Below, in pieces: positions 14,776 to 32,774 of a DNA stretch of 64,000 nt. Position numbers and translations under genes: made by a program. This stretch comes from a virus, in the IMG/VR virus record IMGVR_UViG_3300028364_000014, positions 62,001-126,000 of that record. The stretch is one strand, 5' to 3'. The notes beneath the pieces were generated by a model that was not told the origin of the DNA, did not search any database, and saw only the letters and a list, made by a program, of their open reading frames with translations. Positions within the stretch are counted from its first letter, which is position 1; every line of letters starts with the position of its first letter.

Positions 14776-15060
14776 ATGGCAAACAGTGACGATTTTTATC
14801 AATTTCTCAATTCTTATAATTGTTTTGAGAATTTCTGTGTAGCACTTGACGAACAACATGCTACAACTTTTAATGATTTAATGCGTGATTCAAAAGATTC
14901 AAAAGATTTAATTAAAATAATAGATTATTCGATAACTTGGGATGAAACACACGAAGGCAGTGATTATTGGTCAAGTATTAATTATGATTGGACTAATTCA
15001 TGTAAAACGGGTATATTTATTAAAACTGGACTAAATTGTAATAATATTTGGGAGCGATAA
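14776..15060 (+). CDS. Small paralogue family member A, ends CNNIWER
   Basis: 94 residues. It shares with the genes at 15063, 15351, 16979 and 20641 the layout FL..(C/Y)(F/Y)..(F/Y)C, TF, then W..T.EG.(D/F)(Y/F)W......W. Similar proteins are widespread, unnamed, in phages. It ends in the IW motif plus two extra residues (ER). Confidence 0.65.
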   Translation: MANSDDFYQFLNSYNCFENFCVALDEQHATTFNDLMRDSKDSKDLIKIIDYSITWDETHEGSDYWSSINYDWTNSCKTGIFIKTGLNCNNIWER

Positions 15061-15062
15061 AA

Positions 15063-15341
15063 ATGTCAGCTACATTAAAAGATATTACTAATTTTATTGC
15101 TTTTCTTGAACAAAAAGGAGCTTATCACGAATTTTGTGAGGAAAGTAATCGTCAAAAAAACAATTCTTTTACAAAAACAGTTAATGAGAATAAAAAGAAC
15201 CTCGATAGAATAATTGATCGTGCATTTACTTGGGAAAATACTATTAGTGGATCAAATTATTGGGCAAGTAAGTCTAGTGAATGGGAAATTGTTTTTGAGA
15301 AAGGTATTAGTCTTACAGAAGGTTGTAGAAGTATTTGGTAA
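15063..15341 (+). CDS. Small paralogue family member B, ends GCRSIW
   Basis: 92 residues from the ATG at 15063; an in-frame upstream start at 15048 lies inside the previous gene. The core keeps FTWENT..GSNYWAS......W, with SG replacing EG. C-terminus GCRSIW. Confidence 0.65.
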   Translation: MSATLKDITNFIAFLEQKGAYHEFCEESNRQKNNSFTKTVNENKKNLDRIIDRAFTWENTISGSNYWASKSSEWEIVFEKGISLTEGCRSIW

Positions 15342-15350
15342 GGAGATAAA

Positions 15351-15632
15351 ATGTCGGCAAGTAAAGAAAAATTTATATCTTTTCTAATTAATGAGGATTA
15401 CTATAAAAATTATTGTGATAATGTATTAATACAAAGGGGTTTAACTTTTACGGGTATACTTGCTCAAAATATAACATTTAATATGACAGACATGATAAGT
15501 ACTTCTTTTGAATGGGATAAAACACCGGAAGGTCAATATTTTTGGCAGAATATAAATAAAAAATGGCTTTGTGTATGTAATAATGATATAAAGCTCAATA
15601 CAGGTAATTTTAATTGTAAAAGTATATGGTAA
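15351..15632 (+). CDS. Small paralogue family member C, ends NCKSIW
   Basis: 93 residues after AAGGAGATAAA. Core FEWDKTPEGQYFWQNINKKW. Tandem with A and B, so probably a local duplication followed by strong divergence. C-terminus NCKSIW. Confidence 0.65.
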   Translation: MSASKEKFISFLINEDYYKNYCDNVLIQRGLTFTGILAQNITFNMTDMISTSFEWDKTPEGQYFWQNINKKWLCVCNNDIKLNTGNFNCKSIW

Positions 15633-15642
15633 GGAGGATCTT

Positions 15643-16650
15643 ATGGGTAAACTTACTATTATTGGTGGAACTAAGAATAGAAAATCAAGTGTTATTGATA
15701 AAATATATAATTCATTCATTGAAACAAACAGCTTTAAATATATTGAACTACATAATGGTAAGATTATCCCAAAAGATATAAGTAATAGTAATCTTACTAT
15801 TTGGATGCCGGACATTGCTAACGAAGAACCAAAACATTATCCCGTTAAAAAACAAGGTTCTGTACTTATATGTTCAAAAGTAATACACAATGATAGAACA
15901 AGAATTGACGCTATAACTCGTATATTTAGAATGCATGGAAATGCTGTTATAGCCATTAGAAAAATAATAAACAATAGTTTTGAATTTGAATTAATTGATG
16001 CGCTTGGAAATACTTGGTGTAGAACTATAGATATACTTGAATTAGTTCATACAATAAACTCTTTGTATAAATGGACCAAAGAATCAGTACGAAAAAGTCT
16101 TAAACATAATGAGCTTCCTGATAATGTTTTTAATGGCGTGGATTATAAAGAACTACAAATTTTTATGAATATTAATCAATTAATAGCACTTAAAGTAGCA
16201 GAAGGTTGTGGTAATAGGTTTTTTGGTAACTATAGTACTAGATGTACAAAATTATTTCCAAGTACAAGAAGGAATAAAAATTATTTTTTCTTTTCTCCAC
16301 GTAATACAGATAAAAGGTTTGTTACGATAAAAGATTTAGTACTTACAGATAACCAATATTATTATGGGAATAGAAAACCGTCTGTAGATACTCCAGCTCA
16401 AATAGAACTATATCAACAGATGCCAAAAATTAATTGGATAATTCATGGTCATGCCTATATTAAAAATGCCCCTATTACTGAAAAATATTTGCCTTGTGGT
16501 GATATGCGTGAAGTAGTTGAAGTTCATCGTGTAATAAGAAAAATTAATACTAATCGAATTAATTTAAAAAATCACGGGTTTTTACTTATAGGGAAAAATG
16601 TCGAAGATATGCAAAATCACCTCGACGATTGTAACTTTCATGCTTTATAA
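15643..16650 (+). CDS. Two-domain protein with class II aldolase-like C-terminus
   Basis: 335 residues. The C-terminal half (about 170-335) resembles the class II aldolase/adducin fold: IIHGHAYIKNAP holds an H-x-H metal site, and LKNHGFLLIGKNVEDM matches the NHG..(V/L)..G signature near the end. Class II aldolases cleave sugar phosphates with zinc, but substrate residues cannot be judged here. The N-terminal 150 residues (LTIIGGTKNRKSS, then GSVLICSKV) are an unknown domain. Strong AAGGAGG site. Confidence 0.5.
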   Translation: MGKLTIIGGTKNRKSSVIDKIYNSFIETNSFKYIELHNGKIIPKDISNSNLTIWMPDIANEEPKHYPVKKQGSVLICSKVIHNDRTRIDAITRIFRMHGNAVIAIRKIINNSFEFELIDALGNTWCRTIDILELVHTINSLYKWTKESVRKSLKHNELPDNVFNGVDYKELQIFMNINQLIALKVAEGCGNRFFGNYSTRCTKLFPSTRRNKNYFFFSPRNTDKRFVTIKDLVLTDNQYYYGNRKPSVDTPAQIELYQQMPKINWIIHGHAYIKNAPITEKYLPCGDMREVVEVHRVIRKINTNRINLKNHGFLLIGKNVEDMQNHLDDCNFHAL

Positions 16651-16671
16651 TAGTAGAGAGGAGAATTGAAA

Positions 16672-16887
16672 ATGCTTATTGCATTTAGTGTAGTATTATC
16701 ATTAATTCTTACTGTATTAGCTTCAACATCAGTTCTTATTAAATTTATTTCGTTTCTTAATTACAGTGAGCTTGATAAAGAAATTGATAACTACAAAGGT
16801 ATCAAAAAAAATTATAACTCAGTAAAAGAATTATATATTTTTATAATTTGTGGAAGTTGGTTAATAACTGTATTTTTTTTTAATTAA
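16672..16887 (+). CDS. Small two-helix membrane protein
   Basis: 71 residues from the ATG at 16672, which has GAGAGGAG at good spacing; an in-frame TTG at 16666 is less likely. Hydrophobic helices at about 3-23 and 52-69 flank a Lys/Tyr-rich linker. Unrecognised. Confidence 0.5.
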   Translation: MLIAFSVVLSLILTVLASTSVLIKFISFLNYSELDKEIDNYKGIKKNYNSVKELYIFIICGSWLITVFFFN

Positions 16888-16978
16888 AAGATATAAAAAC
16901 ATAGTATAATGTGATACTCAAAAATATTATTTTCTAAAGGAATACTAAATCCAGTTAGACCAGGTATAAAGGCATATT

Positions 16979-17245
16979 ATGGATACTAAAACTAATTTTA
17001 AAAATTTCTTAATTCAAAAAGATTACTTTGAAAAATATTGTTTGAATTTAAAAAAACAAAAAAATAAAACATTTGATGAGTTTATAAGTACTCAACAAAG
17101 ACCACTATTAGGCGTAATAAATAGCTCATTTACTTGGTATAAAGCCCTAGAAGGGGGAGATTTTTGGAGAAATGTTAATGATGAATGGGATTCAGCACTA
17201 ATGAATAAAGTAATTTTTAATCTTAAATATAGGAGTATTTGGTAA
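16979..17245 (+). CDS. Small paralogue family member D, ends KYRSIW
   Basis: 88 residues. Core FTWYKALEGGDFWRNVNDEW; C-terminus KYRSIW, with Tyr in place of Cys. No clear Shine-Dalgarno directly before the ATG, unlike its paralogues. Confidence 0.6.
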   Translation: MDTKTNFKNFLIQKDYFEKYCLNLKKQKNKTFDEFISTQQRPLLGVINSSFTWYKALEGGDFWRNVNDEWDSALMNKVIFNLKYRSIW

Positions 17246-17318
17246 AGTAAATACTATATTTAAAAATTATTTTAATAATCATAGAAAATTTAATAAAGGT
17301 TTTAATTTAAAATTTGCT

Positions 17319-17474
17319 ATGAACAAAGCACTAGAGCTTGCGCAAATTATACTTATGTATGAAGATTTAGAAGAATGTGTAATTACACATAAATTTATAT
17401 GTCCACATAAAATTATTAGTGGTAAACATTGTATTTATTGTAAAATACCAGACTTATTTCCTTTAGGGAGGTAA
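17319..17474 (+). CDS. Small protein with C-x-H / C-x-x-C motif
   Basis: 51 residues from ATG 17319; the frame stays open further upstream without ATG. The C-terminal half, CPHKIISGKHCIYCKI, could hold a zinc. The ribosome binding site is weak, so start and expression are uncertain. Confidence 0.35.
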   Translation: MNKALELAQIILMYEDLEECVITHKFICPHKIISGKHCIYCKIPDLFPLGR

Positions 17475-17476
17475 TT

Positions 17477-17728
17477 ATGTCAAAAGAGCTTGAAATAATT
17501 GAAATGTATAAAACCCATCATAGATCTTTTAGAATAACTATTAAATATGAAGATATTGATGATTATTATAATTCTACTACTGAAAAAGTATTCAAGAATG
17601 TTTGTCTTTGGGGTGGACCAGATGGATATGATATTAAAGAAAAAACTATATCTTATGAAATGGATGCTCTAATTATGCCATGGATAAAGAAAAGATTTTC
17701 TATGTATATTAGTGATAAATTATTATGA
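17477..17728 (+). CDS. Hypothetical protein
   Basis: 83 residues after AGGGAGGTAATT. Mixed charge, no motif recognised. Confidence 0.55.
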   Translation: MSKELEIIEMYKTHHRSFRITIKYEDIDDYYNSTTEKVFKNVCLWGGPDGYDIKEKTISYEMDALIMPWIKKRFSMYISDKLL

Positions 17729-17796
17729 GATAGATATATTACTAGAAACTTAGATAATAAAAGAATTTTATCTTCTAAAAGAATTAAGGATTAATT

Positions 17797-18132
17797 ATGC
17801 AGTTTAAAAATTTTATAGGTAAAACAATACTAGATATAGATGAAACTAGTGTTAATTGTATTGGTGTTATATTTACAGATGGTACTTGTAAGAATATTTT
17901 TGCTGAGCCTGTGAATAATATACCTGAACTATATGTAGAAAAAGCTGACTCAATTTCTATGCATGTAGTAAATATTTTTAATTTTAGTAAAGATTTTGAT
18001 AGAATCATGACTATAGCTAAAAGTATTGGTAATATTACTACAGAAAGTACAATATACAGAACAGTGGAGTTTAAAGATAGAAGTAAAATATGTATAAATA
18101 AAAAGAAAAGGCTTATTATAGAGGATTTTTAA
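17797..18132 (+). CDS. Hypothetical protein
   Basis: 111 residues. Beta-rich N-terminus (GKTILDIDETSVNCIGVIFTDG) and basic C-terminus. Weak AAGGATTAATT site. Unrecognised. Confidence 0.5.
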   Translation: MQFKNFIGKTILDIDETSVNCIGVIFTDGTCKNIFAEPVNNIPELYVEKADSISMHVVNIFNFSKDFDRIMTIAKSIGNITTESTIYRTVEFKDRSKICINKKKRLIIEDF

Positions 18133-18150
18133 ATTAAGGAGATATAAATA

Positions 18151-18249
18151 ATGTCTAGAAAAGAACTAAACAATATTTTAAATCAAATTGATGCAGAAAG
18201 AAAAAAAGAAGAATTAAAAAAACAAAGTGAGAATGAAAATAAAAAATAA
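18151..18249 (+). CDS. Tiny charged helical peptide, 32 residues
   Basis: ATG after AAGGAGATATAAATA. Lys/Glu-rich, likely a single helix (DAERKKEELKKQ). The good ribosome binding site is the main support. Confidence 0.4.
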   Translation: MSRKELNNILNQIDAERKKEELKKQSENENKK

Positions 18250-18307
18250 TCTTTCTAGAAAACTATCACGTGTAAACTAATATACATAAATAGGTGAAAT
18301 AAATTAC

Positions 18308-18487
18308 ATGACAAAAAAGAAAGTATATAAAAATAATTTTATTAATGATGGAGAAACAGTGTCAGTATTGCCTACTATTTGCAGAACTTGTTACGGTTTT
18401 AGTAATTGGAACGGTGATCGAAGTAAGGTTATATATGAAGATCGAGATTGTGTAAATTGTAAAAATAAAAGAACAATAATATGTTAA
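18308..18487 (+). CDS. Small zinc-ribbon protein, 59 residues
   Basis: CRTC around residue 25 and CVNC near 48 form a four-cysteine ribbon. It ends KRTIIC, slightly reminiscent of the RTIW endings nearby. Ribosome binding site weak (AGGTGAAATAAATTAC). Confidence 0.5.
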   Translation: MTKKKVYKNNFINDGETVSVLPTICRTCYGFSNWNGDRSKVIYEDRDCVNCKNKRTIIC

Positions 18488-18510
18488 TAATTAATACAGG
18501 AGTAAATTAG

Positions 18511-18615
18511 ATGTATAAGTTTTTTATATTTATTATGGTAGTACTAATATATATATTTTCTGTAGGAACAGCAATATTTGGTATTCATTGTTTAATGCAG
18601 TCATTAATGATATAG
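18511..18615 (+). CDS. Tiny membrane peptide, 34 residues
   Basis: ATG after AGGAGTAAATTAG. One hydrophobic helix (FIFIMVVLIYIFSVGTAIFG). Supported by the ribosome binding site and spacing. Confidence 0.4.
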   Translation: MYKFFIFIMVVLIYIFSVGTAIFGIHCLMQSLMI

Positions 18616-18634
18616 GTATTCTTAAAGGATTGTA

Positions 18635-19012
18635 ATGAAAAATAAAGTATATGGTATAGTGAATAATGATAAAAAATCTGTAGGTATCGTACATAATAAT
18701 AATTACAGTGAAATTTTATTACTAACTAATTTTTCGCCCAAAAATAAAGCATTGGAAATTATCAGTGAGTATTGTAGAAAGAAAAATATAAGTTATTTTT
18801 ATTTTACATGTACATATACAAAAGACAATGAAACTATTTATAAATCCTGTGATACTTGTGGAACATATGGTCCTATAATTGCATTTAAATATTTATTTAA
18901 TCCTTATGCTTGTAATGAATATAATTTTACTTGTGAGTATTGTATGAATATACTAAAATTAGAAAGAGAAGAGTTGAATTATATAGAGTATGAAAATTAT
19001 TATTATGATTAA
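18635..19012 (+). CDS. Zinc-ribbon protein
   Basis: 125 residues. CDTC near residue 73 and CEYC near 100 make a zinc ribbon; the N-terminal 65 residues start KVYGIVNNDKKSVGIVHNNN, a beta-rich region. Acidic tyrosine-rich C-terminus. Unknown function. Confidence 0.55.
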   Translation: MKNKVYGIVNNDKKSVGIVHNNNYSEILLLTNFSPKNKALEIISEYCRKKNISYFYFTCTYTKDNETIYKSCDTCGTYGPIIAFKYLFNPYACNEYNFTCEYCMNILKLEREELNYIEYENYYYD

Positions 19013-19038
19013 AAAAAATAAAAGGAGGAGAAAGTAAA

Positions 19039-19332
19039 ATGGATTTTGAAAACGATGATATAGTCGTTAAATTAAAAGATTTTAAATGCGCAGAAAAAGG
19101 ATATAATATAGGAAAAAGTAATCCAGCAATTAATACTAAATACGAGTGTTGTGGTAAAATTATAGATTTAGAAGACCATAATATAACAAGAGAAGAAACG
19201 ATTAATGTTATAGAAAAAGGAAAAATAATTGATAATTATGGATTTGAAGTACAATGGGAAAATGAAAGTATTAATTCATATGAACTAGATGATTTAGTTT
19301 TAGTGTATAAAAAATACAGAACAATATGGTAA
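19039..19332 (+). CDS. SH3-like small protein, ends KYRTIW
   Basis: 97 residues. Resembles the protein at 25886: both have G..KSNP....KY/EYxC.G.I and then (V/I)QW.N...NSY..DDL, a pattern like a small SH3/KOW barrel. C-terminus KKYRTIW. Excellent ribosome binding site (AAAGGAGGAGAAAG). Confidence 0.6.
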   Translation: MDFENDDIVVKLKDFKCAEKGYNIGKSNPAINTKYECCGKIIDLEDHNITREETINVIEKGKIIDNYGFEVQWENESINSYELDDLVLVYKKYRTIW

Positions 19333-19346
19333 TAAGGAGAAATAAA

Positions 19347-19463
19347 ATGAATGAACATCAAGACGATGATAAACTTGATATTATAGACACACAAACGTGT
19401 ACATGTGGTTATCCATTAGATGAGTGTGGTTCTTGTACTGATGGTATGTGCGAGGAAGATTAA
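19347..19463 (+). CDS. Tiny cysteine-rich acidic peptide, 38 residues
   Basis: ATG after AAGGAGAAATAAA; stop directly abuts the RNA ligase start. Five cysteines in CTCGYPLDECGSCTDGMC suggest metal binding. Confidence 0.5.
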   Translation: MNEHQDDDKLDIIDTQTCTCGYPLDECGSCTDGMCEED

Positions 19464-20609
19464 ATGGCTGAACATAGATTAGTAACAATTGAAAAAATAA
19501 CTAAAGTTACTGAACATCCAAACGCGGACAAACTTGATATTGTAGATATACAAGGATGGCAATGTGTCACACAAAAAGGAGTATATAAAAAAAATGAAAT
19601 TGTAATATATTTTCATATTGATTCTATATTACCAGTAGACATCGAAAAAAGAATATTTGGTCCCGACGCAAAAATAACATTAAATAAACATAGAATACGT
19701 GCTATAAAAATACGCAGTATGCTTTCTTATGGACTAGTAGTACCGATAAGTCTTTTTAGTGATTTAATTAAAGATGAAAAAGTCAATGATGATGTTACAA
19801 ATATCTTTAAAGTTACAAAATACGAACCTATAATAAATAAAAAGAACATTTTATATGTAAATAGACAGAAAAAAAGATATGAAAATCCAAACTTTAAAAA
19901 AGTAAGAAAACCAGAAAGACTTTCAAACTATAAAGGGTGTTTTGATGGCAAAGAAGTAATGATAACTGAAAAAATCCATGGAACATCATGTAAAGTAGGC
20001 TGGGTTCTAAGACCTAACAATACTTGGAAAGAAAAACTTATTGTTAAACTTTTTGGTAATTATCAATTTGTATATAGAACTATGAAAGTACAATTACAAA
20101 AACATGACACGATCATGGATAAAATTTTAACTAAAATAGGAATAAGAAAATATAAAGGGTATTATAAAGATATAAATCATGGTAATGTTTATGCAAAAAT
20201 GGTTAATCAATATGAATTAAAAGAAATTATTTCATCTGGTTATGAAATAGCGTTTGAAATATATGGGAGTAGAATTCAAAAAAATTATACTTATGGATTA
20301 AAGCATAATGAACATAAAATGGTAGTATATGCAGTAATAAAAGATGGTAAATATTTACCTCCACATGATGCGTATGCTTTCTGTGAAATTCATAAATTAC
20401 CACATGTTCCTATATTATATATAGGCATATTCTCTAATGACGAACTGAATAGATGTACAGTTGGAGTAAGTGTATTAGATCCAAATACAAAAGTAAGAGA
20501 AGGATGTTGTATTGTACCACTAGACGGAAAACCATTATGGATGGGAAAAGAAGTAATGAAATCAATCAATCCATACTATGAACTTAAAAATCAAACAGAA
20601 TATAATTAA
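19464..20609 (+). CDS. ATP-dependent RNA ligase with N-terminal OB-like domain
   Basis: 381 residues. Nucleotidyltransferase motif I is EKIHGTS, with Lys170 as the expected AMP acceptor (K-x-x-G), followed by motif IIIa FEIYGSR and the motif IV-like MVVYAVIKDG. The N-terminal 110 residues begin with a HPNADKLDIVDIQGWQCV OB-like domain, as in the Deinococcus-type RNA ligase. Such ligases seal nicks in RNA or RNA-DNA hybrids and can repair tRNAs cut by host anticodon nucleases. No dedicated partner kinase-phosphatase was seen in the window. Confidence 0.85.
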   Translation: MAEHRLVTIEKITKVTEHPNADKLDIVDIQGWQCVTQKGVYKKNEIVIYFHIDSILPVDIEKRIFGPDAKITLNKHRIRAIKIRSMLSYGLVVPISLFSDLIKDEKVNDDVTNIFKVTKYEPIINKKNILYVNRQKKRYENPNFKKVRKPERLSNYKGCFDGKEVMITEKIHGTSCKVGWVLRPNNTWKEKLIVKLFGNYQFVYRTMKVQLQKHDTIMDKILTKIGIRKYKGYYKDINHGNVYAKMVNQYELKEIISSGYEIAFEIYGSRIQKNYTYGLKHNEHKMVVYAVIKDGKYLPPHDAYAFCEIHKLPHVPILYIGIFSNDELNRCTVGVSVLDPNTKVREGCCIVPLDGKPLWMGKEVMKSINPYYELKNQTEYN

Positions 20610-20640
20610 CAATATGAAAAATTTTAAAAGATAGTAAATT

Positions 20641-20910
20641 ATGACCAAAAATCAAATAAAAAGACTCTATGATTTTCTTATTCAAAATAATTGCTATAAT
20701 GAGTATTGTATAGCCTTAGTAAAAGCAAAAGACACAACATTTGAGCAATTTACAAACAACCATTACTCGGCTCCTGCGGCATTAAGTTCACCATTTTCTT
20801 GGGCAAATACAAATGAAGGATTTAATTTTTGGATAAAATTAAGTCGTTTATGGCATGATGAGTGCGAATTGACTAAAAAAGCACATTCAATTTGTAAAAG
20901 TATTTGGTAA
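20641..20910 (+). CDS. Small paralogue family member E, ends CKSIW
   Basis: 89 residues. Core FSWANTNEGFNFWIKLSRLW; C-terminus ICKSIW. Separated from its four relatives by more than 3 kb, so the family is not only a tandem array. Confidence 0.65.
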   Translation: MTKNQIKRLYDFLIQNNCYNEYCIALVKAKDTTFEQFTNNHYSAPAALSSPFSWANTNEGFNFWIKLSRLWHDECELTKKAHSICKSIW

Positions 20911-20945
20911 TTAATTATAATTTATAATCAATGAGGAGAATTAAA

Positions 20946-21128
20946 ATGGAAAAACAAATTGAAAATCAAAAAAAAATCTTTAGTGTAGTTAAATGTTTAA
21001 ATAAACTAGATAATTGTGATAAAAAATGTCATGTTTGTGCAGTACAAGAAGGATGTGATAATCTATGTAGTTATGCAGTAAAAAACAATATAAATGAAAA
21101 AACCCAATGTATTTATTGGGAAAAATAA
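20946..21128 (+). CDS. Small cysteine-rich protein, 60 residues
   Basis: Starts at the ATG after GAGGAGAATTAAA. Seven cysteines, with C...CHVCAVQEGCDNLC at the centre, suggest a zinc knuckle or cluster. Unknown role; located directly before rtcB. Confidence 0.55.
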   Translation: MEKQIENQKKIFSVVKCLNKLDNCDKKCHVCAVQEGCDNLCSYAVKNNINEKTQCIYWEK

Positions 21129-21168
21129 CAAAAAGAATTTAAAAATACCAGAGACAAAGGAAATTATT

Positions 21169-22557
21169 ATGTTTAATAGTAAAAAATTAGTACTATCTCT
21201 ACCAGCACACGAAATAGAATCTGGTGCAGTACAACAAATATCTCAATGTATTGGGGTAGACGTACTTGAAAAATTAGTAATACTACCAGATGTACATCAA
21301 GGATACGATATTCCAATTGGGTCTGTAGCCTTAATAGATGGGTATGTTTGGCCAGGAGCTGTTGGAGTTGATATCGGATGCGGGATGGGAAGTATAAATA
21401 CCCATCACACATTAGAAGAATTGAGTATGTTTAATAAAAATGATCGTATTGAGGTTTTTAAGGAAATACAAAAAATTATTCCTACAGGATATAGCACAGG
21501 AAATGGATATGATTTTAAATCATTTACTAATTATATAAATGATAAAGACTTCAACACTAATGTTATGAGTAGAATGAATATATCTATTGGTACTCTTGGG
21601 GGTGGTAAAATGGTTGCTTCCAGCCCAAGAGGATAATATAAATATACTGAAATCTTTTCTAATTGACTTGGAATCCCACTATAGTAATTATATTGTGGGA
21701 GACAGGGGCGAACCCGAAAGGGACGTTGAGAGACTAAACGAAAAGATATCATCGAAATGGTAAAGCGATAGTCCGAACATCCGGTATAAGGTTTTCCGAA
21801 GCCGGAGAGATAGGCAGAAATGACCTATCCTTTATTTAGATCTATTAAATAAAGTAACAAATAACTGAATCATTTTCAAAATATTGGAATAAATAATAAA
21901 GGGGAAGTAGGAGTTACTTTACATACAGGAAGTCGTAATCCTGGTAATATAGTAGGTAAATATTGGATGAATAGAGCAAAAAAGGACGGTATAAATTTTA
22001 ATGGTCTATATATGTATCCAATAAACTCTGAACTTGGTCAAGCTTATTATAATGATATGCTATGGGCAATTGATTACGCAGAGTTCAATAGATTTATTAT
22101 TATGAAAAACACTCTTAAACTATTGGGTCTTGATATAAAAAATTATATTAAAGATATGATAAATGAAACTCATAATCATGCAATTCTACTTCCCAATAAT
22201 AAACTTCTCCATAGAAAAGGAGCTACTCAAGCTGAAAAAGGTATAATGGGGGTAATTCCTGCTAATATGAGAGATGGTGTGTATATTACTAAAGGATTGG
22301 GTAATGCAGAATTTCTATCGTCAGCTAGTCACGGCGCTGGTAGAAAATTTTCAAGAACACAAGCAAAAAAGGTTGTGGATTTTGATGCTGTAGTAAATGA
22401 ATTAGAAGAACTAGATATTATTGTTAATATTACTCCTAAAAATAGTGATGAAAATCCAGGAGCATACAAAGACATTAAACACGTATTAAAATTACAAGAT
22501 GGTATTGTTGTAGATATTATTGATCATTTTATACCTAAAATAGTACATATAGGTTAA
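21169..22557 (+). CDS. rtcB: RtcB RNA ligase, gene split by a group I intron (join 21169-21606, 21868-22557)
   Basis: Joining the exons gives about 375 residues. Exon 1 carries LPDVHQGYDIPIGSV and GAVGVDIGCGM, the conserved metal-binding region; exon 2 carries LHTGSR and SASHGAGR, whose His is the GMP-accepting residue. The splice restores GTLGGGNHF at the family's conserved G-x-G-N-H site. RtcB joins 2',3'-cyclic phosphate (or 3'-phosphate) and 5'-OH RNA ends using GTP and manganese, as in tRNA repair. Without splicing, translation stops at about 21636, soon after the exon boundary. Confidence 0.9.
21607..21867 (+). other. Group I self-splicing intron without endonuclease ORF
   Basis: 261 bases. 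The 5' exon ends in T (21606) and the intron ends in G (21867), as required. An internal guide at 21616-21629 pairs with the exon end CTTGGG...GGTGGT with a terminal T-G pair. P7 strands are AGACTA (21731) and TAGTCC (21769). A P9-type hairpin GATAGG/CCTATC lies at 21809-21829, and GGGGCGAACCC lies upstream. No open frame of useful size is present, so mobility, if any, depends on a factor in trans. Confidence 0.85.
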
Positions 22558-22581
22558 TTATTAAGATGGAGATATAATATC

Positions 22582-22710
22582 ATGCATATTTCAGAAGCAC
22601 TAAAATTAAAACCAGGACAAAAAGTTCTTAGAGAAAAAGGTCGTAAAGAAGAACATGATGACTATATAAAAGATATGGAATATATGATGTCTTATGATGA
22701 TGATCATTAA
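22582..22710 (+). CDS. Small charged protein, 42 residues
   Basis: ATG after ATGGAGATATAATATC. N-terminus MHISEALKLKPGQKVL, acidic C-terminus YDDDH. No family recognised. Confidence 0.45.
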   Translation: MHISEALKLKPGQKVLREKGRKEEHDDYIKDMEYMMSYDDDH

Positions 22711-22727
22711 TTAAAGGAGTACAAAAT

Positions 22728-23207: not shown

Positions 23208-23208
23208 T

Positions 23209-24202: not shown

Positions 24203-24212
24203 AAGGAAAATT

Positions 24213-24476: not shown

Positions 24477-24510
24477 TTAAAAATAATACTGATTAGTGCA
24501 AGGAAATCTT

Positions 24511-24960: not shown

Positions 24961-25883
24961 AATTTGATGTAACAAATTTAGGAATACGTGTTATAGCAAA
25001 TTCGGCAATGTCTAGGTATCCGTCATTATATCGTCCACAAGGAATAGAAGGTACTGTTTTATTTATAAAAAGTAATTTAGATTATTATGAAAAAATACGT
25101 TATATGGTTAAAATGGGCATGGTAATAGAATTAGCTTGTGCTCCTGAAATCGATGTTATAGCAGAAATAAAAGTACGTTGGGATAATAACAGATGTGCTT
25201 GGCATAATCAAGGATCGCTTGTTTATAGATACAGTAAAGGACCCAGATGTAATAGAATATGGTTTAATAATAAATTTCTAATTTCTGAAAGTAATGTACC
25301 GATAAGTATGTTAAAAATTAAAACTATTAATAGAATCCCAAGAAAATTTAAAACTGACTGGGAAGAAAAAGAATACTCATCTTCGATACGAAATATTAGT
25401 ACTTTAACATATTCAAAGTCCAGAGGAACATCTCCTAGTTACTTAGAACGTGGTTTAAAAACCACATATCAACTTAATAGACCTAATAAAAAATACACTT
25501 GCTACCTTGAGGACGAATCTACAGTATCACATAAAAAGCTAGCTAGTTCAAATTTTTTTAAAAAGTATGCAATAAAAAAAGAACCTAATCCATGTATAGA
25601 GATTAATGAATTAGACTTTTCAAAAGAATTAGAATCAATAGTTGAACCAGAATTACCTCATTACTCTTTAAAGAAAGAAACTTTTAATCCGTTTATTACT
25701 GCTACTAAAGATTCTAAAAATTCTAAGAAAATCAAGTCTACTTTAGAGATCAATAAACTTATAAAAAAACCAGTAATTAATCCAATCTCTCCTGAAGAAA
25801 TGAGGAAAATTAAGAAAGCAAACAGTACTTCTTTACGTGAATTTTTAAATAAAAAAGAGAAAAAAAGGAGACGTAAAGTATAA
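24957..25883 (+). CDS. Protein with N-terminal SH3-like domain and basic tail
   Basis: 308 residues. The first about 90 residues contain GIEGTVLFIKS and EIKVRWDNNRCAWHNQGSL, like an SH3/KOW barrel and similar in style to the proteins at 19039 and 25886. The remainder is polar and Lys-rich, ending KKEKKRRRKV, suggesting nucleic-acid binding. No IW ending. Confidence 0.5.
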   Translation: MKFDVTNLGIRVIANSAMSRYPSLYRPQGIEGTVLFIKSNLDYYEKIRYMVKMGMVIELACAPEIDVIAEIKVRWDNNRCAWHNQGSLVYRYSKGPRCNRIWFNNKFLISESNVPISMLKIKTINRIPRKFKTDWEEKEYSSSIRNISTLTYSKSRGTSPSYLERGLKTTYQLNRPNKKYTCYLEDESTVSHKKLASSNFFKKYAIKKEPNPCIEINELDFSKELESIVEPELPHYSLKKETFNPFITATKDSKNSKKIKSTLEINKLIKKPVINPISPEEMRKIKKANSTSLREFLNKKEKKRRRKV

Positions 25884-25885
25884 TC

Positions 25886-26176
25886 ATGTTTAAAGTAATA
25901 TTAAATACTCGTCGACATGGAATTTCTAAAAGTAATCCAGTATTTGGATCTGAGTATCAATGCGAAGGTATTATAGACAGTTATTACACAAGCGGTTCTG
26001 GTAGAAACATTGGTTGTCCTACCTTAAAAGAATTTATAGATTTAAATACTGAAGGGACTATTAAAGGACTTAACATTCAATGGGATAATGGTACTAATAA
26101 TTCATATAGAATTGATGATTTAACTATTTCAACCACTGATGAATCCGTGACAGGTATATGTAATACTATTTGGTAA
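25886..26176 (+). CDS. SH3-like small protein, ends CNTIW
   Basis: 96 residues, paralogue of the protein at 19039 (shared KSNP...EYQCEGII and IQWDNGTNNSYRIDDL). Ends GICNTIW. Directly follows the larger SH3-like gene. Confidence 0.6.
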   Translation: MFKVILNTRRHGISKSNPVFGSEYQCEGIIDSYYTSGSGRNIGCPTLKEFIDLNTEGTIKGLNIQWDNGTNNSYRIDDLTISTTDESVTGICNTIW

Positions 26177-26186
26177 AGAGGATAAT

Positions 26187-26636
26187 ATGGACTGGAAACC
26201 AGAACAAGATGGATATACACATATTAATATATACTCTAAAGGAAAAACTGTATTAGGATGTTTTTTAACTAACTTTTCTTTTTCTCCTATAATTACTAAT
26301 GATGGTAATTTTCAATCTATTGAAGGTTATTGGTATTGGCTAAGTACTCATGATGAAAGATTACGTACTCTTGTTGGTTGGGATGCCAAAAAACGAGGAA
26401 GAGCGTTGGATAGGCACTTTGAATTTACTGATATAGAATTTCAACAAAAAATAAGAGAAGCGTGTTGGATTAAAATTCACTCTAATCAAGCAATGTTTAA
26501 TTTATTCAAAGAATCTACTATACCATTTACTCATTATTACGTATTCCATAATGGTTTTGCTAAAACTGTTGGGTTTGAATGGCAAGTTGAAATGTGGGAA
26601 CAATTTAGAGTCTATATAAGGAATGGTTATCAATGA
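26187..26636 (+). CDS. NADAR/YbiA-like protein
   Basis: 149 residues. CFLTNFSFSPI, then a QSIEGYWYWL segment, resembles the F-L-S-N-F...E-x-Y-Y core of the NADAR (YbiA) superfamily, and the C-terminal W.(V)E.W pattern fits. NADAR proteins remove ADP-ribose from modified guanine or act on related N-glycosides. In a phage this could reverse ADP-ribosylating defence. The call rests on remembered motif similarity. Confidence 0.55.
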   Translation: MDWKPEQDGYTHINIYSKGKTVLGCFLTNFSFSPIITNDGNFQSIEGYWYWLSTHDERLRTLVGWDAKKRGRALDRHFEFTDIEFQQKIREACWIKIHSNQAMFNLFKESTIPFTHYYVFHNGFAKTVGFEWQVEMWEQFRVYIRNGYQ

Positions 26637-26872
26637 GTTATTTAATTAAAAAAACATTTAGCTCAATGATAGTTCTCAAGTACGGTGAAAAAGAACGAAA
26701 AATACTAGATGATGTGGTTGCTTTCGATATAATACATTGTATAGAATTAACTTTCTCTTCACTTAATGAATATAATAATAGTAAACATATTAAGGAATTA
26801 AAATTATTTTTACCTGATTATTTTACAATTTTGAATATTAAAAACAAATTAAAGGATAAATTAATAGAATGA
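26633..26872 (+). CDS. Small hypothetical protein, beta-alpha-beta type
   Basis: 79 residues, ATGA overlap with the previous gene and with the next. It shares with the protein at 37501 the segment IIHCI followed by a basic linker and a strand ending in LP. Unknown function. Confidence 0.5.
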   Translation: MSYLIKKTFSSMIVLKYGEKERKILDDVVAFDIIHCIELTFSSLNEYNNSKHIKELKLFLPDYFTILNIKNKLKDKLIE

Positions 26873-27798
26873 CTAAAGATATATCAAAACTACCACTAAA
26901 AAAAGTAAAAATTGGGGTAAGTCAGCCAAGTTATAAGGTTAAATGGGCTTTATATCATGATCCTGTGACGGTATTTGAAAATCAAGAATTATCTTTCCCT
27001 AAAGCCATTAATGATGGCACAGAAATACATGATTCAGTGTGTTACTCGTCTGTAATTCATCATTACAAATCACTTAGTAAAGAAAAAAATATACCTAATA
27101 GAATTTACACAGAATTAGATTTAAATCCAGATCCAACCAATAAAAACCTTCCTTATCTTTTAAGAAAAGAGATGAGGGAATGGCTTGAGATTTGTATAGC
27201 CAATTTTACACTCCCAAAAAATATAAACCCTATTAAATCCGTACCTTCTACTAAAAAAGGTATAATGGTTCTTGACTTGGAAACTGCAGATAGTACTTTT
27301 ACTTATCTTTATTTAGCTATGTTCAGACATATTAGAGAATCACCGTCATTAGTAAAATCTGTATTATTTCTTCATAAAGAACATAAATTAGACTTTTATA
27401 TTGCTTATGTTTTAGCGTCCTCTTTTAATGTCACCGGTGAAGGGCATCATCCTATAAAGGTTAATAATAGTCCTTATTGTCATAATAAACCTATACCAAA
27501 ACAGATGTCAGATAACATTAACCTTAAAGCTGCTTGTAGTTTATATAGGGCAGTAAATGAAGAAGGTTTGGTAGATGTAGTTCCTTTAAGTGATGCTACT
27601 AACTGGCTTTGTGGTAATAAAATCAGTGAACTATGTAAAAAAGATTTTATAGTACCAATTTCTGATTTACTAGATGAAGAACTTATTAAAGTAGTTCATT
27701 CTTCTAATGATGAGGAAGCTATTAAACACTTTGAACTTTATAGTCAATTACCCAAACCTAAAGGATTTGGGCTTGCAGTTAATCGCAAGCTGATTTAA
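26869..27798 (+). CDS. Hypothetical protein upstream of the IscB element
   Basis: 309 residues, not recognised. The ATG overlaps the previous stop. Its stop codon (27796-27798) lies about 14 bases before the inferred left boundary of the IscB element, so the gene seems intact and its 3' end appears to supply the omega-RNA guide. Confidence 0.55.
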   Translation: MTKDISKLPLKKVKIGVSQPSYKVKWALYHDPVTVFENQELSFPKAINDGTEIHDSVCYSSVIHHYKSLSKEKNIPNRIYTELDLNPDPTNKNLPYLLRKEMREWLEICIANFTLPKNINPIKSVPSTKKGIMVLDLETADSTFTYLYLAMFRHIRESPSLVKSVLFLHKEHKLDFYIAYVLASSFNVTGEGHHPIKVNNSPYCHNKPIPKQMSDNINLKAACSLYRAVNEEGLVDVVPLSDATNWLCGNKISELCKKDFIVPISDLLDEELIKVVHSSNDEEAIKHFELYSQLPKPKGFGLAVNRKLI

Positions 27799-28008
27799 TT
27801 CAGGATTGAACAGACGTTTAATCAAAGGCTCACCTACGGATGCCACTCCCAGTCCGTAGCAATGGAGGTAAGCGGAGCATTACAAGTCCTCATTGCTGAT
27901 TAGTAGGTAACGAAGATCAGTATTACTTTTGATTAAGTCGGGGGAGACGAACCGAACTATTGAACTATTCTTAGTTTGCCCGATCAATGGGTTTTTATTA
28001 AGAGGTAA
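27797..28008 (+). ncRNA. Omega RNA (HEARO-type) of the IscB element
   Basis: About 210 bases of strong structure directly upstream of iscB. Elements seen: a long-range stem GAC.TTAATCAAA (27813-27827) with CTTTTGATTAAGTC (27926-27939); CTACGGA/TCCGTAG (27834-27859); CAATGGAGG/CCTCATTG (27860-27895). Conserved-looking pieces GGCTCACC, GCCACTC, GGTAAGCGGAG and GAACCGAA match my memory of IscB-associated omega RNAs. The expected guide is the about 16 bases before the long stem (27797-27812), which is flanking phage sequence. Confidence 0.8.
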
Positions 28009-28010
28009 AA

Positions 28011-29501
28011 ATGATTTACATTATAGACGCAAGGAACAAGATAGGTCACCCGACCAAGAAACATGATATGATAGGTCGATTGATCCGAAACGAGAAAGCA
28101 AAGATTATTAAGAGATTGAACAAGGATGTTATGATCGTTCAATTATTAACAAAGGTTTTTTCTAAAAGTGAAACAATTGATTGTGAATTTAGGATAGGTA
28201 TTGATCCTGGATATGCAAATATTGGATTTGCTGTGTTTAAAATACATGGCAACATTATCACTAAACTTATTAATGGAGAGGCATATTTACGAACAAAAAA
28301 AATCAAAGAAGGGCTTGATGCTAAGAGAATGTATCGCCGTAATCGAAGATATATAGCTCGAAAGAATATTAAAAAGAAACATGGAATAGGTCAAGCCAAA
28401 TTCAAACATCCTGTTTGGAAAAATCGAAACAAACATAAGTTTCAACCTACTCATCTTCATTTAATTCAATCGCATGAAAATGTGCTGGCAAAATTGTTGA
28501 AACTAATTCCAATCGAACAAGTTAAAATTCATTTGGAATATAATAACTTTGATTTTCATAAAATGATTAATCCTAAGATACAATCTTTTTGGTATCAAAA
28601 AGGGTTACAGTTTGGTTTTGAGAATATAAAAAGTTATGTGAGGAATCGAGACAACTATCAATGTCAAATTTGCAAAAAGGATGTTGGTAATATCAGGAAT
28701 GAAGTTCACCATATCAAATGGAAAAGTAATGGTGGATCAGATCGACCTGAAAATTTAATATTGTTGTGTGAAGGCTGCCACAACAAGGTCCATAAAAAAG
28801 GATTGAGTTGTCCAGATAGATCTATTTCAGTAAATGGATACCGTAATGCTGGAGTTTTAAATTCAGTTATGGAAACAATATGGAGTAAGTTTGAAGATCA
28901 ATGTCCAGTTCAAGACACCTATGGTTATATCACAAGTGGTGTTCGGAACCGAGACAACATTATTAAATCTCACGACAATGACGCAAGCGTTATTGCCTTC
29001 AACGATAGCTTGGGAAGTCAAAACTTTGAGGATTGTTCTTGGAAGGATTATAGCTCTAAATTAAATATGAATCAGTTCCCCAAGCATACCCGATCATTCA
29101 CATTAAGACATACTGACCGTAGATATGTAATTTTAAATTCTAAATTGCCTGAAAAGAAGAGAACTATAGTGGCTTGGAATCGCAAACGAAGGGCGGGCCA
29201 AGATCCTAAGAAGCAAAGCCTTGCCGAGTTGAAGCAATCTCTTATGATTGATGGAAGATTGAATTCAACGGTTATTGTTGTAATCCCAGGGCAGAAGGTA
29301 ATGAGAAGTTTGATCACTGATTACAAAATTCGAAAAGGTGATGTTGTCAATGTGGAATCAACAATACGAGTCTGTAAAGGTGTGCAAAACAAAGGTACGG
29401 TTGTTACTTTTGAAAATGATTTAAACCCAAAGAAATTAGATACATTTGGAACTAAAAAATGTCATAAAATGATAAACAATTGTGGATTGGTGACTTATTA
29501 A
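28011..29501 (+). CDS. iscB: IscB RNA-guided nuclease
   Basis: 496 residues. A PLMP-like N-terminal domain (residues 1-50, with GHPTKKH replacing PLMP) is followed by RuvC-I IGIDPGYANIGFAV (Asp65), an Arg-rich bridge helix RMYRRNRRYIARKNIKKKHG, RuvC-II IHLEYNNFD (Glu176), an inserted HNH domain (CQIC 218-221, HH 233-234, Asn248, CEGC 253-256) and RuvC-III SHDNDASVIA (His321, Asp324). All catalytic residues are present, so it should cut both DNA strands guided by the upstream omega RNA. No TnpA transposase is encoded nearby. Confidence 0.9.
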   Translation: MIYIIDARNKIGHPTKKHDMIGRLIRNEKAKIIKRLNKDVMIVQLLTKVFSKSETIDCEFRIGIDPGYANIGFAVFKIHGNIITKLINGEAYLRTKKIKEGLDAKRMYRRNRRYIARKNIKKKHGIGQAKFKHPVWKNRNKHKFQPTHLHLIQSHENVLAKLLKLIPIEQVKIHLEYNNFDFHKMINPKIQSFWYQKGLQFGFENIKSYVRNRDNYQCQICKKDVGNIRNEVHHIKWKSNGGSDRPENLILLCEGCHNKVHKKGLSCPDRSISVNGYRNAGVLNSVMETIWSKFEDQCPVQDTYGYITSGVRNRDNIIKSHDNDASVIAFNDSLGSQNFEDCSWKDYSSKLNMNQFPKHTRSFTLRHTDRRYVILNSKLPEKKRTIVAWNRKRRAGQDPKKQSLAELKQSLMIDGRLNSTVIVVIPGQKVMRSLITDYKIRKGDVVNVESTIRVCKGVQNKGTVVTFENDLNPKKLDTFGTKKCHKMINNCGLVTY

Positions 29502-29659
29502 TACTCTTATTACGGTAAATAAATCATATCTAACAAAAACTGCTAAAGCAAAGGCTTATATCCCAAAGCTGAAGCATTGGGTTTTACGGCCTAAAGGCCG
29601 AACCGATAAAAACAATGAAAACAAAGATTTGTAATTTTAAATAAAAAAGGTGGGGTTTA
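29502..29659 (+). mobile_element. Candidate right end of the IscB element
   Basis: Non-coding. It contains the short palindrome CGGCCTAAAGGCCG (29587-29600) and GCTAAAGCAAAGGC upstream. IS200/IS605-type ends carry small hairpins, so the boundary may lie here, but the exact end cannot be read without an empty-site relative. Confidence 0.35.
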
Positions 29660-30205
29660 ATGAACACAATTTTCGCAATAGAAAAAATTAATAAAACAAG
29701 AGAATATCTTGATAGCATCGAAAAACATATTCTAAATGTAAAAAAAGCATTTGAAATTGTTAAAAACAAATGTTCAGATTTGCCTTTTATGGATAATCTT
29801 TTTTTGCATCATCTTAATATAGAAGTTAGATGTCAAGACAGCACAAAACTTTCTGAGGATGTCTTTATTAAAGATCGTCAAACTTTATATCCAACAAGCT
29901 ATGAGAATTTTCCTGATATAATTGACAACTTAAACGAAATTGATTATCATTATACAAAAGTATGGCCTAAAACTTGTGAAAAACATCCTAAGAGTAAAGA
30001 TATGTATAAACTATATTGCACTCATATGGTTATTAATTGGATGGCAAAAGGATTTGAAAGTAATGAGTCTATTCAAGAATATTATTTAAGAAATCAATCA
30101 GAGATAGAAATTCCCACATATGCAAAAAAATTTGTAGACGAATTAATTTTTCATATCGAATCTCAAATCGAAGAAGACCTCGAAACTTATAGACCGTCTA
30201 TGTAG
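29660..30205 (+). CDS. Hypothetical protein, possibly DUF5662-like
   Basis: 181 residues, helical. H-H-L...D.TKLSEDVF and MVINWMAKGFE recall the His/Asp arrangement of DUF5662 phage proteins, whose function is unknown. First gene after the IscB element. Confidence 0.4.
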   Translation: MNTIFAIEKINKTREYLDSIEKHILNVKKAFEIVKNKCSDLPFMDNLFLHHLNIEVRCQDSTKLSEDVFIKDRQTLYPTSYENFPDIIDNLNEIDYHYTKVWPKTCEKHPKSKDMYKLYCTHMVINWMAKGFESNESIQEYYLRNQSEIEIPTYAKKFVDELIFHIESQIEEDLETYRPSM

Positions 30206-30249
30206 TTTTTATTATTGATATTAAACGAAGTGTTTTTATAGGAAGGTCA

Positions 30250-30392
30250 ATGGGCGTTAATTATATTATCAAAGATATTGAATCAAAAGAGGTCAACGGC
30301 ATAAAATGTCCACTAGTAACAATAAAGTTTATTTTATGCCATTAGAAGCAATGAGAAATCCAGCTATACTTATTGGTGCTATGCAAAAGTGA
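30250..30392 (+). pseudogene. Small gene apparently frameshifted
   Basis: From ATG 30250 (after AGGAAGGTCA) 31 residues are read to TAG at 30345. The -1 frame continues as YFMPLEAMRNPAILIGAMQK to TGA at 30392. One extra T in the TTTT run near 30334 would join them into a plausible 47-residue protein. It may be a mutation, a sequencing error or programmed slippage. Confidence 0.4.
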
Positions 30393-30400
30393 GGTAAAAT

Positions 30401-30790
30401 ATGTTTGATTTGAATTCTTTTATTATTGACGGTATAAAACTCTTTATTCTTGCAATTTTTATTTTTTCATTCATGTCTTTTTGTTTTAAACTTAAAATTT
30501 CTATAGAAAATAATGATTCAGGTAATTTTAGCAGGATTATTTGGAATAAGCGATGGTATATATTTATTATTATAATTTCACTTATTAGTATGATTTCTGT
30601 TTTTAATTTAGAACAAGCGTATCGACCTAAGAATATTTTAACCACTAACACTTCTCCTACAATTATGGGATCAAATGAGTCTCGTAAAATACCTATTAAA
30701 AATATAGAACCAATAAATCGTGAATTAATTTATAAAAAAAATAAACAACAAGGAGAATACGCCAAAAAGATTTTTAAAGACCTTAAATAA
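30401..30790 (+). CDS. Two-helix membrane protein
   Basis: 129 residues; helices at about 10-32 and 51-70, then a polar Lys-rich tail of 60 residues. Ribosome binding site GAGGTAAAAT. Unrecognised. Confidence 0.5.
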   Translation: MFDLNSFIIDGIKLFILAIFIFSFMSFCFKLKISIENNDSGNFSRIIWNKRWYIFIIIISLISMISVFNLEQAYRPKNILTTNTSPTIMGSNESRKIPIKNIEPINRELIYKKNKQQGEYAKKIFKDLK

Positions 30791-30829
30791 TTAAATTAAA
30801 AAATTAAAATTTTATTACAGGAGTTAATT

Positions 30830-31276
30830 ATGAAAGGTAATTTAATAGATTTTGCAGAACAAGGTGTTTTTAATGTAATTATACACGGTTGTAATTGTTT
30901 TCATGTTATGGGGGCAGGCATAGCAAAAGAAATCAAATGCAGGTATCCTAAAGCATATGAAGCTGACATTACACACACCATTAAAGGAGATGAAACAAAA
31001 TTAGGGCATTATTCTTACGCACTTATTGAAACTGTAGATAGACCTTTTACTATAATTAATGGTTATACTCAATATGCTTATGGAAAAGGGGGACCACATA
31101 TAAACTATAAAGCTATTCAATCAGTATTTCGTCGTGTAGCAAAACAGTATTTTACTTCTGTTATAGGATACCCTTATATCGGGGCTGGACTGGGTGGAGG
31201 AGATTGGTCAATAATCCAAAAAATTATAAATGAAGAATTAAAAAATATATCTCATCATCTAGTAACATTTAAATAG
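30830..31276 (+). CDS. Macro-domain protein
   Basis: 148 residues, a single macro domain. IIHGCNCFHVMGAGIAKEI near the N-terminus and YPYIGAGLGGGDW near residue 125 are the ADP-ribose-binding loops. Family members hydrolyse ADP-ribose-1''-phosphate (a by-product of yeast-type tRNA splicing) or remove ADP-ribose from proteins. Company with RNA ligases, NadR and a NADAR-like protein supports ADP-ribose handling. Confidence 0.85.
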   Translation: MKGNLIDFAEQGVFNVIIHGCNCFHVMGAGIAKEIKCRYPKAYEADITHTIKGDETKLGHYSYALIETVDRPFTIINGYTQYAYGKGGPHINYKAIQSVFRRVAKQYFTSVIGYPYIGAGLGGGDWSIIQKIINEELKNISHHLVTFK

Positions 31277-31318
31277 GAATAATGTAATTAATACTTTATA
31301 TTAAAATTGGTGATTATA

Positions 31319-31594
31319 ATGGGTGATGTCTTTATCGATGTATTTTTCTATGACGATGACTCTGAGGATGAAATCTCAGAATGTGTAGCAGAGTACAATA
31401 AGGTAGATTGGAAGCGTATTGAAAAAAGAATAGTAGTAACTATAGCTGAAGATGGGGATTTTCCTATTAATACAATAAATAGGATTGAAATATACTCAGA
31501 AGATGCTAGTGATGTAATTAAAGTGTATGAATATAGAAACTTAATGAGTTTATTAAAATATGGTTTAGAAAAATGTAACTCTATTTGGCGCTAA
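31319..31594 (+). CDS. Acidic protein, ends CNSIWR
   Basis: 91 residues from ATG 31319 (weak site; TTG at 31307 also possible). Very acidic N-terminal third (FYDDDSEDEISE). Ends EKCNSIWR; here the motif serine is TCT rather than AGT. Confidence 0.55.
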   Translation: MGDVFIDVFFYDDDSEDEISECVAEYNKVDWKRIEKRIVVTIAEDGDFPINTINRIEIYSEDASDVIKVYEYRNLMSLLKYGLEKCNSIWR

Positions 31595-31605
31595 AGGGGA
31601 TAAGT

Positions 31606-32058
31606 GTGAAAAACAACTCAGTATATGATGATAGTTGGGTAAGTAAGTTTATAGGTACTATAATTTTTGTTTGTATTACATCAATCATAGCTTTTTATGT
31701 AATTAATGGTTTATATTATAAAAATAACCCAACTGTTAAAAAACAAATAAATTATCACGCAAATTCAGTATTAATTAAAACTTTGGTAGAAATACCACCG
31801 GGAGCTTTTATTCATAGATTTATAGATTATGATTTAGAAAGGGTATGTTATATTAATAGTGCTGGTGGAGGCATTTGGTGTGAACCATTAAATCGTATTT
31901 TAGAAAATAAAGATCCAGAATTAATAGAAGATGTTCTCTCAGATGTTAGATCATTATATACTAGTAAAAATGTACCAAAATGGGAACATAATACGAAAAA
32001 GTATTATCCTAAAGATTATAAATTTCAAGTAGAAACGTACAATTATCGTCACAAATAG
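31606..32058 (+). CDS. Membrane-anchored hypothetical protein, GTG start
   Basis: 150 residues from GTG after AAAGGGGATAAGT. One transmembrane helix at about 14-34, then a soluble domain with a PPGAFIHRFIDYDLE segment. Unrecognised. Confidence 0.5.
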   Translation: MKNNSVYDDSWVSKFIGTIIFVCITSIIAFYVINGLYYKNNPTVKKQINYHANSVLIKTLVEIPPGAFIHRFIDYDLERVCYINSAGGGIWCEPLNRILENKDPELIEDVLSDVRSLYTSKNVPKWEHNTKKYYPKDYKFQVETYNYRHK

Positions 32059-32104
32059 TTAAAATTATACAAAATCAAACAATAAATAAATTAATGAGGA
32101 AAAC

Positions 32105-32413
32105 ATGACACAATCATTAAAACAAACAGTAGAACTGGTTATAACAGAGATTAAAATTAACTATTCCAATGATAAAGTATCAATTAATGTAGTGGGATCT
32201 ACTAAACTAAAAGAAGAAAATCTATTAGTAAAATTTTTTTGGACTACAGATTTAGGAGCATCAACATTAACTATAACTAACGATGTGTGTATTGATAAAT
32301 ATTTTAAAAACGCTTTACAAACTGTTCTTTCAGGATATACCAATGGTATACTTCATAGTACTAAAATAGGTTTTACATTTAACACCTCCGAAAATGGACA
32401 ACTAGAAAGGTAG
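32105..32413 (+). CDS. Hypothetical beta-rich protein
   Basis: 102 residues, alternating strands, no motif. Ribosome binding site TGAGGAAAAC. Unrecognised. Confidence 0.5.
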   Translation: MTQSLKQTVELVITEIKINYSNDKVSINVVGSTKLKEENLLVKFFWTTDLGASTLTITNDVCIDKYFKNALQTVLSGYTNGILHSTKIGFTFNTSENGQLER

Positions 32414-32417
32414 GATA

Positions 32418-32774
32418 ATGGATATTGTATCAATTTTTATTGTATATTTTATAATCATAAGTCATAGTATAATGGGTATTATTACATTTGGTAGAGTAAG
32501 AATAATTTTATCTCAGGAATCTTCAAATAAAACTAATTATCAAAAATGGTACATAGATATGGCTATAGCTTTACTACTAGCTGTATTTTTACCTATACCT
32601 TTTATTATTTTTCATGAATTTATAGAAGAGTATGGAAATTTTAAAGGAATAAATTTTAAGATAAAAAGACCGGCATTTGATGACATAGCTTGGCAAGAAT
32701 GTAATACAGCCTCTATTAACACAATTTGGCCTAATATTAATTACAATATGGAAATTTATTTAAGGACATTATAA
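32418..32774 (+). CDS. Membrane protein with internal INTIW
   Basis: 118 residues; helices at about 3-26 and 51-72. The segment ASINTIW lies 14 residues before the end, as if an ancestral C-terminal IW ending had been extended by read-through. Its final base is shared with the start of the deformylase gene. Confidence 0.5.
   Translation: MDIVSIFIVYFIIISHSIMGIITFGRVRIILSQESSNKTNYQKWYIDMAIALLLAVFLPIPFIIFHEFIEEYGNFKGINFKIKRPAFDDIAWQECNTASINTIWPNINYNMEIYLRTL

Follow-up and report, generated by a model that had tools for sequence, protein, structure and literature searches.

The virus record IMGVR_UViG_3300028364_000014 (237,910 bases) derives from an uncultured giant phage. We analyzed a stretch of 64,000 nucleotides, positions 62,001 to 126,000 of that record, hereafter the window; positions given without a locus handle are numbered within it. 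An earlier note on this stretch, made from the letters alone, had described eleven proteins sharing a C-terminal pentapeptide, and all eleven ends are present: 11 plus-strand genes within 14776-31594 terminate in [CY]-x-[STN]-I-W followed by zero to two residues. These tagged genes and two near-copies of the peptide are listed below (aa, amino acids; ORF, open reading frame; AF2, AlphaFold2).

Eleven small genes ending in a common pentapeptide

14776-15060, plus strand: EG-FW family, 94 aa; tag CNNIW at 15037-15051, then ER
15063-15341, plus strand: EG-FW family, 92 aa from ATG (the listed ORF begins at TTG 15048); tag CRSIW at 15324-15338
15351-15632, plus strand: EG-FW family, 93 aa; tag CKSIW at 15615-15629
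16979-17245, plus strand: EG-FW family, 88 aa; tag YRSIW at 17228-17242; AF2 model
19039-19332, plus strand: SH3-like family, 97 aa; tag YRTIW at 19315-19329
20641-20910, plus strand: EG-FW family, 89 aa; tag CKSIW at 20893-20907
23336-23587, plus strand: basic singleton, 83 aa, net charge +9; tag CDSIW at 23567-23581, then R
23609-23899, plus strand: N-terminal hydrophobic helix and charged heptad-like stretch (topology inferred from sequence), 96 aa; tag YRSIW at 23882-23896
23918-24202, plus strand: singleton without a PHROG or Pfam match, 94 aa; tag CKTIW at 24185-24199
25248-25262, plus strand: near-copy CNRIW, internal, at about residue 102 of gene 24942-25883
25886-26176, plus strand: SH3-like family, 96 aa; tag CNTIW at 26159-26173
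31307-31594, plus strand: acidic singleton, 95 aa, net charge -10; tag CNSIW at 31574-31588, then R
32715-32729, plus strand: degenerate near-copy INTIW, 14 residues before the end of gene 32418-32774

Nothing follows the IW in eight of the 11 genes, R follows in two and ER in one, and Tyr stands in place of Cys in three of the 11 tags. The internal CNRIW is preceded by a segment that loosely aligns with the SH3-like pair and is followed by a long extension. The earlier note had also counted the gene ending at 32774 as tagged; its position was given correctly, but INTIW lacks the Cys or Tyr and is degenerate at best.

We compared the number of tags with chance in a greedy gene set of the whole phage (316 proteins, 67,884 residues). 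The pattern [CY].[STN]IW matched 11 times at a terminus and never internally, while composition predicts about 0.012 terminal matches (Poisson P ~1e-29 for 11 genes). Counting each of the six families described below only once still gives a Poisson P of ~5e-15. The shared ending is real: unrelated small proteins of one uncultured giant phage bear the same five residues. All 11 genes are confined to 17 kb of the 238-kb genome, and pieces of the whole virus record contained no further gene with a tagged C-terminus. The GC content drops to 27% at 16-24 kb of the window, where most of the tagged genes lie.

The tagged proteins are also uniform in size, all being 83-97 aa, a narrow range compared with that of untagged small genes; the Trp falls at residue 82-104, both internal near-copies included. 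Six random draws of untagged small genes spanned 14 aa or less with P ~5e-4, a post hoc value, as sizes and ranges were assessed after the data had been seen.

Protein bodies, codons and relatives

With the tags cut off, phmmer and hmmsearch divided the proteins into two groups and four singletons, that is, six bodies. The EG-FW group comprises five proteins with a five-helix body (phmmer E 1e-9 to 1e-15), and the SH3-like group comprises two (phmmer E 2e-9; 25886-26176 and 19039-19332 are 44% identical in a pair alignment). The best match across families in searches of the set against itself had an E of 0.015. This division is by sequence, and the singletons could still have common folds. The claim of at least five unrelated types of body is borne out by these six groups. 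Treating the eleven proteins as independent cases is justified only in part: there are six bodies, but five of the proteins are paralogues and two more are likewise paralogues. That all of them form one diverged family, the tag being its last strand, is scarcely credible. The uniform size and the five plus two genuine paralogues speak for it. Such a family requires homologous bodies, yet six groups were found, with a five-helix domain on one side and membrane-helix, acidic and basic singletons on the other, cross-family matches are no better than the value above, and the tail is disordered in the EG-FW model.

That model, an AF2 prediction for 16979-17245, has five helices up to residue 75, and residues 81-88 have a predicted local distance difference test score (pLDDT) below 50. 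A fold search against the PDB with this model gave no match, and a BFVD search returned uncharacterised phage proteins (best E 0.03). At the sequence level, EG-FW proteins match several PHROG families of unknown function across the W-x-x-T-x-E-G-x-x-F-W stretch, and several of these matches stop at or near the end of the profile. Homologues in LR756501, Microviridae and a Vibrio phage (a weak match) stop where the domain stops or shortly beyond it, and none has a CxSIW tag. Because the domain homologues are untagged and the tail is disordered in the model, the tag of the EG-FW family is, as far as the prediction goes, an added flexible tail outside the fold. A docking tag would sit on just such a flexible segment.

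We next consider the level at which the ending is conserved. When the genes are aligned on the TGG, information content is high over five codons except at the free second residue. Outside these 15 nucleotides it equals background, the stop codon excepted, and neither the linker nor the next gene is conserved. At up to two mismatches the DNA motif occurs only at these gene ends and never out of frame; at three mismatches 20 copies were seen against 9.25 expected, an excess of about the number of tags. The codons vary as well (Ser AGT/AGC/TCT, Thr ACA/ACT, Ile ATT/ATA). Since conservation does not reach beyond the 15 coding nucleotides, the codons differ and out-of-frame copies are missing, the sequences support selection on the peptide rather than on a DNA repeat, as the earlier note had argued from the codons. 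The converse, a shared DNA element at the 3' ends (a recombination or cassette junction, or a promoter or RNA signal) with the peptide as its by-product, is very improbable. Such an element would explain why the motif adjoins the stop and often also the next ribosome-binding site, and why Ser codons are biased to AGY. It does not sit well with conservation that ends at codon borders on both sides, with copies all in one frame and confined to ORF ends, or with the TCT/AGT and ACA/ACT variation.

A terminase search placed the phage in a clade of uncultured phages (79 loci). The structural module recurs in two of these, G021 (189 kb) and G025 (144 kb), and the replication genes recur in G021 as well; identities are mostly 40-90%. 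The segment holding the tagged genes, at ~58-171 kb of the genome, is missing from both, no C-terminal triplet was over-represented above control in either, and the tag is absent. Across the terminase relatives the pattern occurs in 44 records, never at real gene ends except in a near-identical contig. This contig (G002) carries both the terminase and the PnuC-like gene adjoining the first tagged genes, so that the tagged segment is truly joined to the core. The segment amounts to ~110 kb of mostly plus-strand accessory DNA and includes the whole window; its absence from G021 and G025 concerns the two longest terminase relatives, and its left junction is backed by a near-identical contig. The terminase large subunit itself (L002:10829-13819, minus strand) has 996 aa, and many relatives match it in split or shorter segments, as expected if an intein is present in some relatives and absent in others.

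Wider scans gave the same picture. Among the at least 120 stretches listed by an IMG/VR scan with TGTARRAGTATHTGGTAA, real tagged genes occurred only in the near-identical contig 3300028361_000028; a candidate in L025 was rejected as an ORF antisense to a long gene. Tandem-tag patterns searched in IMG/VR and GTDB genomes found the near-identical contig alone. The GTDB matches (Chloroflexi, Anaerolineales metagenome-assembled genomes and others) were without tagged proteins, and those in Chloroflexi resemble DNA repeats. For three accessory neighbours, the class II aldolase-like protein, the 548-aa protein at 35692 and the helicase, no relatives were found beyond the near-identical contig. A tblastn search of the tagged proteins against phages gave weak or untagged domain relatives only, and a 38-residue match in L012 was dismissed as chance.

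A probable docking tag and its rivals

We consider it probable that [CY]-x-[STN]-I-W acts as a short linear docking tag, by which about eleven unrelated small accessory proteins reach one receptor. The same peptide recurring on unrelated bodies beyond chance is what such a tag would leave behind. The flexible C-terminal tail would display the tag to a common receptor, which we infer to be a single reader. Bound as a beta-strand-like peptide, it could have Cys/Tyr, Ser/Thr and Trp buried along one side, while the second residue, which varies and is mostly charged or polar, would face the solvent. Cysteine chemistry (lipidation or a disulfide) was rejected as an explanation: since Tyr replaces Cys in three of 11 tags, the mechanism would be independent of the thiol. 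Likewise, the R/ER tails and the near-copies CNRIW and INTIW imply that a free carboxylate at the Trp is not required. The earlier note had proposed, among other readers, a PDZ-type one, which would need a free carboxylate after a fixed last residue. With R or ER after the IW in three of 11 genes and CNRIW lying internally, this part of its reading is disfavoured, whereas its core, a short selected peptide on several families and no DNA repeat, stands.

As to the receptor, the prohead core or shell leads our guesses while itself being rather unlikely. The ~10-kDa proteins would then be taken up into the virion for delivery together with the DNA, a proposal supported by their uniform small size and by the link between EG-FW proteins and an N-terminal motif in LR756501 (see below). 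The remaining weight goes to docking at another hub or at a membrane, or to delivery to an unfoldase, and mostly to the former; docking at a membrane or replication hub fits everything and is specific to nothing.

Short peptides with a comparable role are known. T4 packages diverse small proteins (IPI-III) via a 10-residue terminal sequence (PMC9026906), which has been noted as a route for putting various proteins into the head (PMC9026906). As here, a short terminal peptide, of which the first 10 residues suffice, is carried by small divergent accessory proteins (PMC9026906). However, the T4 sequence is N-terminal and cleaved by gp21, whereas the present tag is C-terminal, any cleavage or packaging of its carriers is hypothetical, and one carrier has a membrane helix. 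P1 DarB, cited beside virion loading, uses an N-terminal signal as well (PMC9024508). The encapsulin cargo-loading peptide resembles the tag in being short, C-terminal and found on unrelated types of cargo, and it is enough to bring them into an HK97-fold shell (PMC7355545). It differs in having ~10 residues and a shell gene beside the cargo (PMC7355545), while the CxSIW tag has five residues and a shell partner for it would be hypothetical.

Several observations count against a docking tag, or against its virion form. Carriers of the tag come from a single phage and one near-identical contig only, none of them is a structural protein of the phage, and the receptor is putative. The predicted N-terminal transmembrane helix of 23609-23899 is awkward for capsid loading; the charge pattern of this protein suggests that its C-terminus is likely cytoplasmic. 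Codon use leans mildly from that of the genome (Ser AGY in six of seven, Ile ATT in nine of 11), and the 3' ends may be partly alike through recent common ancestry, some copies being derived from one another. Finally, the resemblance of the N-terminal motif of LR756501 to the T4 capsid targeting sequence is presumptive.

Two other rivals invoke enzymes that the phage itself encodes. The tag could be a C-terminal degron by which an AAA+ protease, most simply a phage ClpC-like unfoldase with host ClpP, clears early proteins together. The phage does encode a ClpC-D2-like unfoldase (L007:1339-4491, minus strand, with an intein; E 5e-45 to ClpC), in which the pore loop reads GYIGH and IGFGD aligns with the GFG of ClpC; both the pore loop and the ClpP loop look intact. 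Its intein separates the Walker A region from the pore-loop segment, and the protein has an uncharacterised N-terminal region of 300 residues. The tag resembles ssrA-type and other ClpX, ClpA and ClpC C-degrons, in which a few C-terminal residues commit unrelated proteins to one machine, and in 11 of 11 full matches it stands at most two residues from the C-terminus, where a Clp degron is expected. Moreover, the unfoldase is absent from the genes that the phage has in common with G021 or G025, both untagged, but unfoldase and tag lie in the same large segment missing from these relatives, so their joint absence is weak evidence. Degradation is putative, and the Trp at or near the end, the tolerated R and ER extensions and the internal near-copies are unlike ssrA-type degrons; C-degrons ending in Trp are not known to be typical of ClpX or ClpA. 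Overall, we regard a degron as the chief rival, yet improbable. Hardly any weight goes to the idea that the tag is the substrate site of a phage amide ligase, extended or modified after translation. A ligase of the kind that the earlier note placed further right is indeed there, a PF14395 COOH-NH2 ligase at 43970-44899 in the same accessory segment. Nevertheless, the C-terminal residue is not constant (W, R after W, or ER), no linked operon or other feature ties the ligase to the tag, and amide ligases of this kind are widespread in phages without the tag.

A docking tag would group small accessory genes of giant phages, most of which are without assigned function, into one set before their functions are known. 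It poses a testable binding-partner problem and could supply a new protein-directing peptide for phage engineering.

A second label in huge phages

The EG-FW homologue of LR756501 led us to a second label system. Within 50 kb of this 735-kb genome (L330, 520000-569990), more than 12 distinct proteins have DPYGEE[ND]W, or a form that differs from it at one residue, at their C-terminus with zero to four residues after it. An IMG/VR scan for DPYGEE[DN]W recovered 71 stretches (L334-L404). With tails removed, the 45 C-terminally labelled proteins of at least 60 aa fell into 38 BLASTP clusters, mostly with exactly two residues after the Trp. Further copies lie near the N-terminus or internally, and several carriers have a hydrophobic N-terminus. 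The form DPY[GD]EExW occurs in 159 of 926 genes of these loci, 82 times C-terminally, in loci picked for the motif and hence not at a genome-wide rate. A literature search for the DPYGEE label found no report; the sole open paper with these letters concerns yeast peptides.

The EG-FW profile matches eight ORFs in the DPYGEE loci, two of them labelled (L375:6044-6385, with a variant form, and L396:9242-10207), and several of the matching ORFs start with a K-x-[FY]-x-x-[FY] type N-terminus. An N-terminal motif of the M-x-K-x-Y-x-x-Y-I-N-E-A type is common to the EG-FW protein of LR756501 and several neighbouring proteins (the L330:26038-26583 area). This type of motif is found on many proteins of the same huge phages (L343, L375, L396) and is frequent on EG-FW proteins.

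Both labels, which we would read as short linear docking tags, place a Trp zero to four residues from the stop of many unrelated accessory proteins, membrane and EG-FW proteins included. The DPYGEE[DN]W label differs in its acidic sequence, in occurring also near the N-terminus or internally, and in its carriers, which range from ~40 to 480 aa. The two together suggest that giant phages repeatedly mark many unrelated accessory proteins with labels at or near a terminus, and a second, unrelated label in huge phages suggests a general strategy that homology annotation misses. It is plausible, although we put it somewhat below even, that giant-phage lineages each append their own short Trp-containing peptide as an address label (CxSIW here, DPYGEExW in 735-kb-class phages), by which a phage-encoded receptor would gather the carriers at the virion, a membrane site or a protease. 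If so, new genes could be recruited to such a system by gaining a tail only.

Other genes of the phage include those for the major head protein (L002:2885-3958) and a putative scaffold (L002:4690-5397), and a few more are noted in passing. Among the tagged genes lies an RtcB-like RNA ligase (21094-22557) in two ORFs (21094-21636 and 21967-22557) with another frame between them, pointing to an intervening element or a frameshift. Two similar RRXRR-HNH (IscB-type) proteins, at 28011-29501 of the window and at L003:9926-11413 (minus strand), have the same N-terminal sequence start, and the same phage carries a TnpB-like protein at L006:10608-11813.

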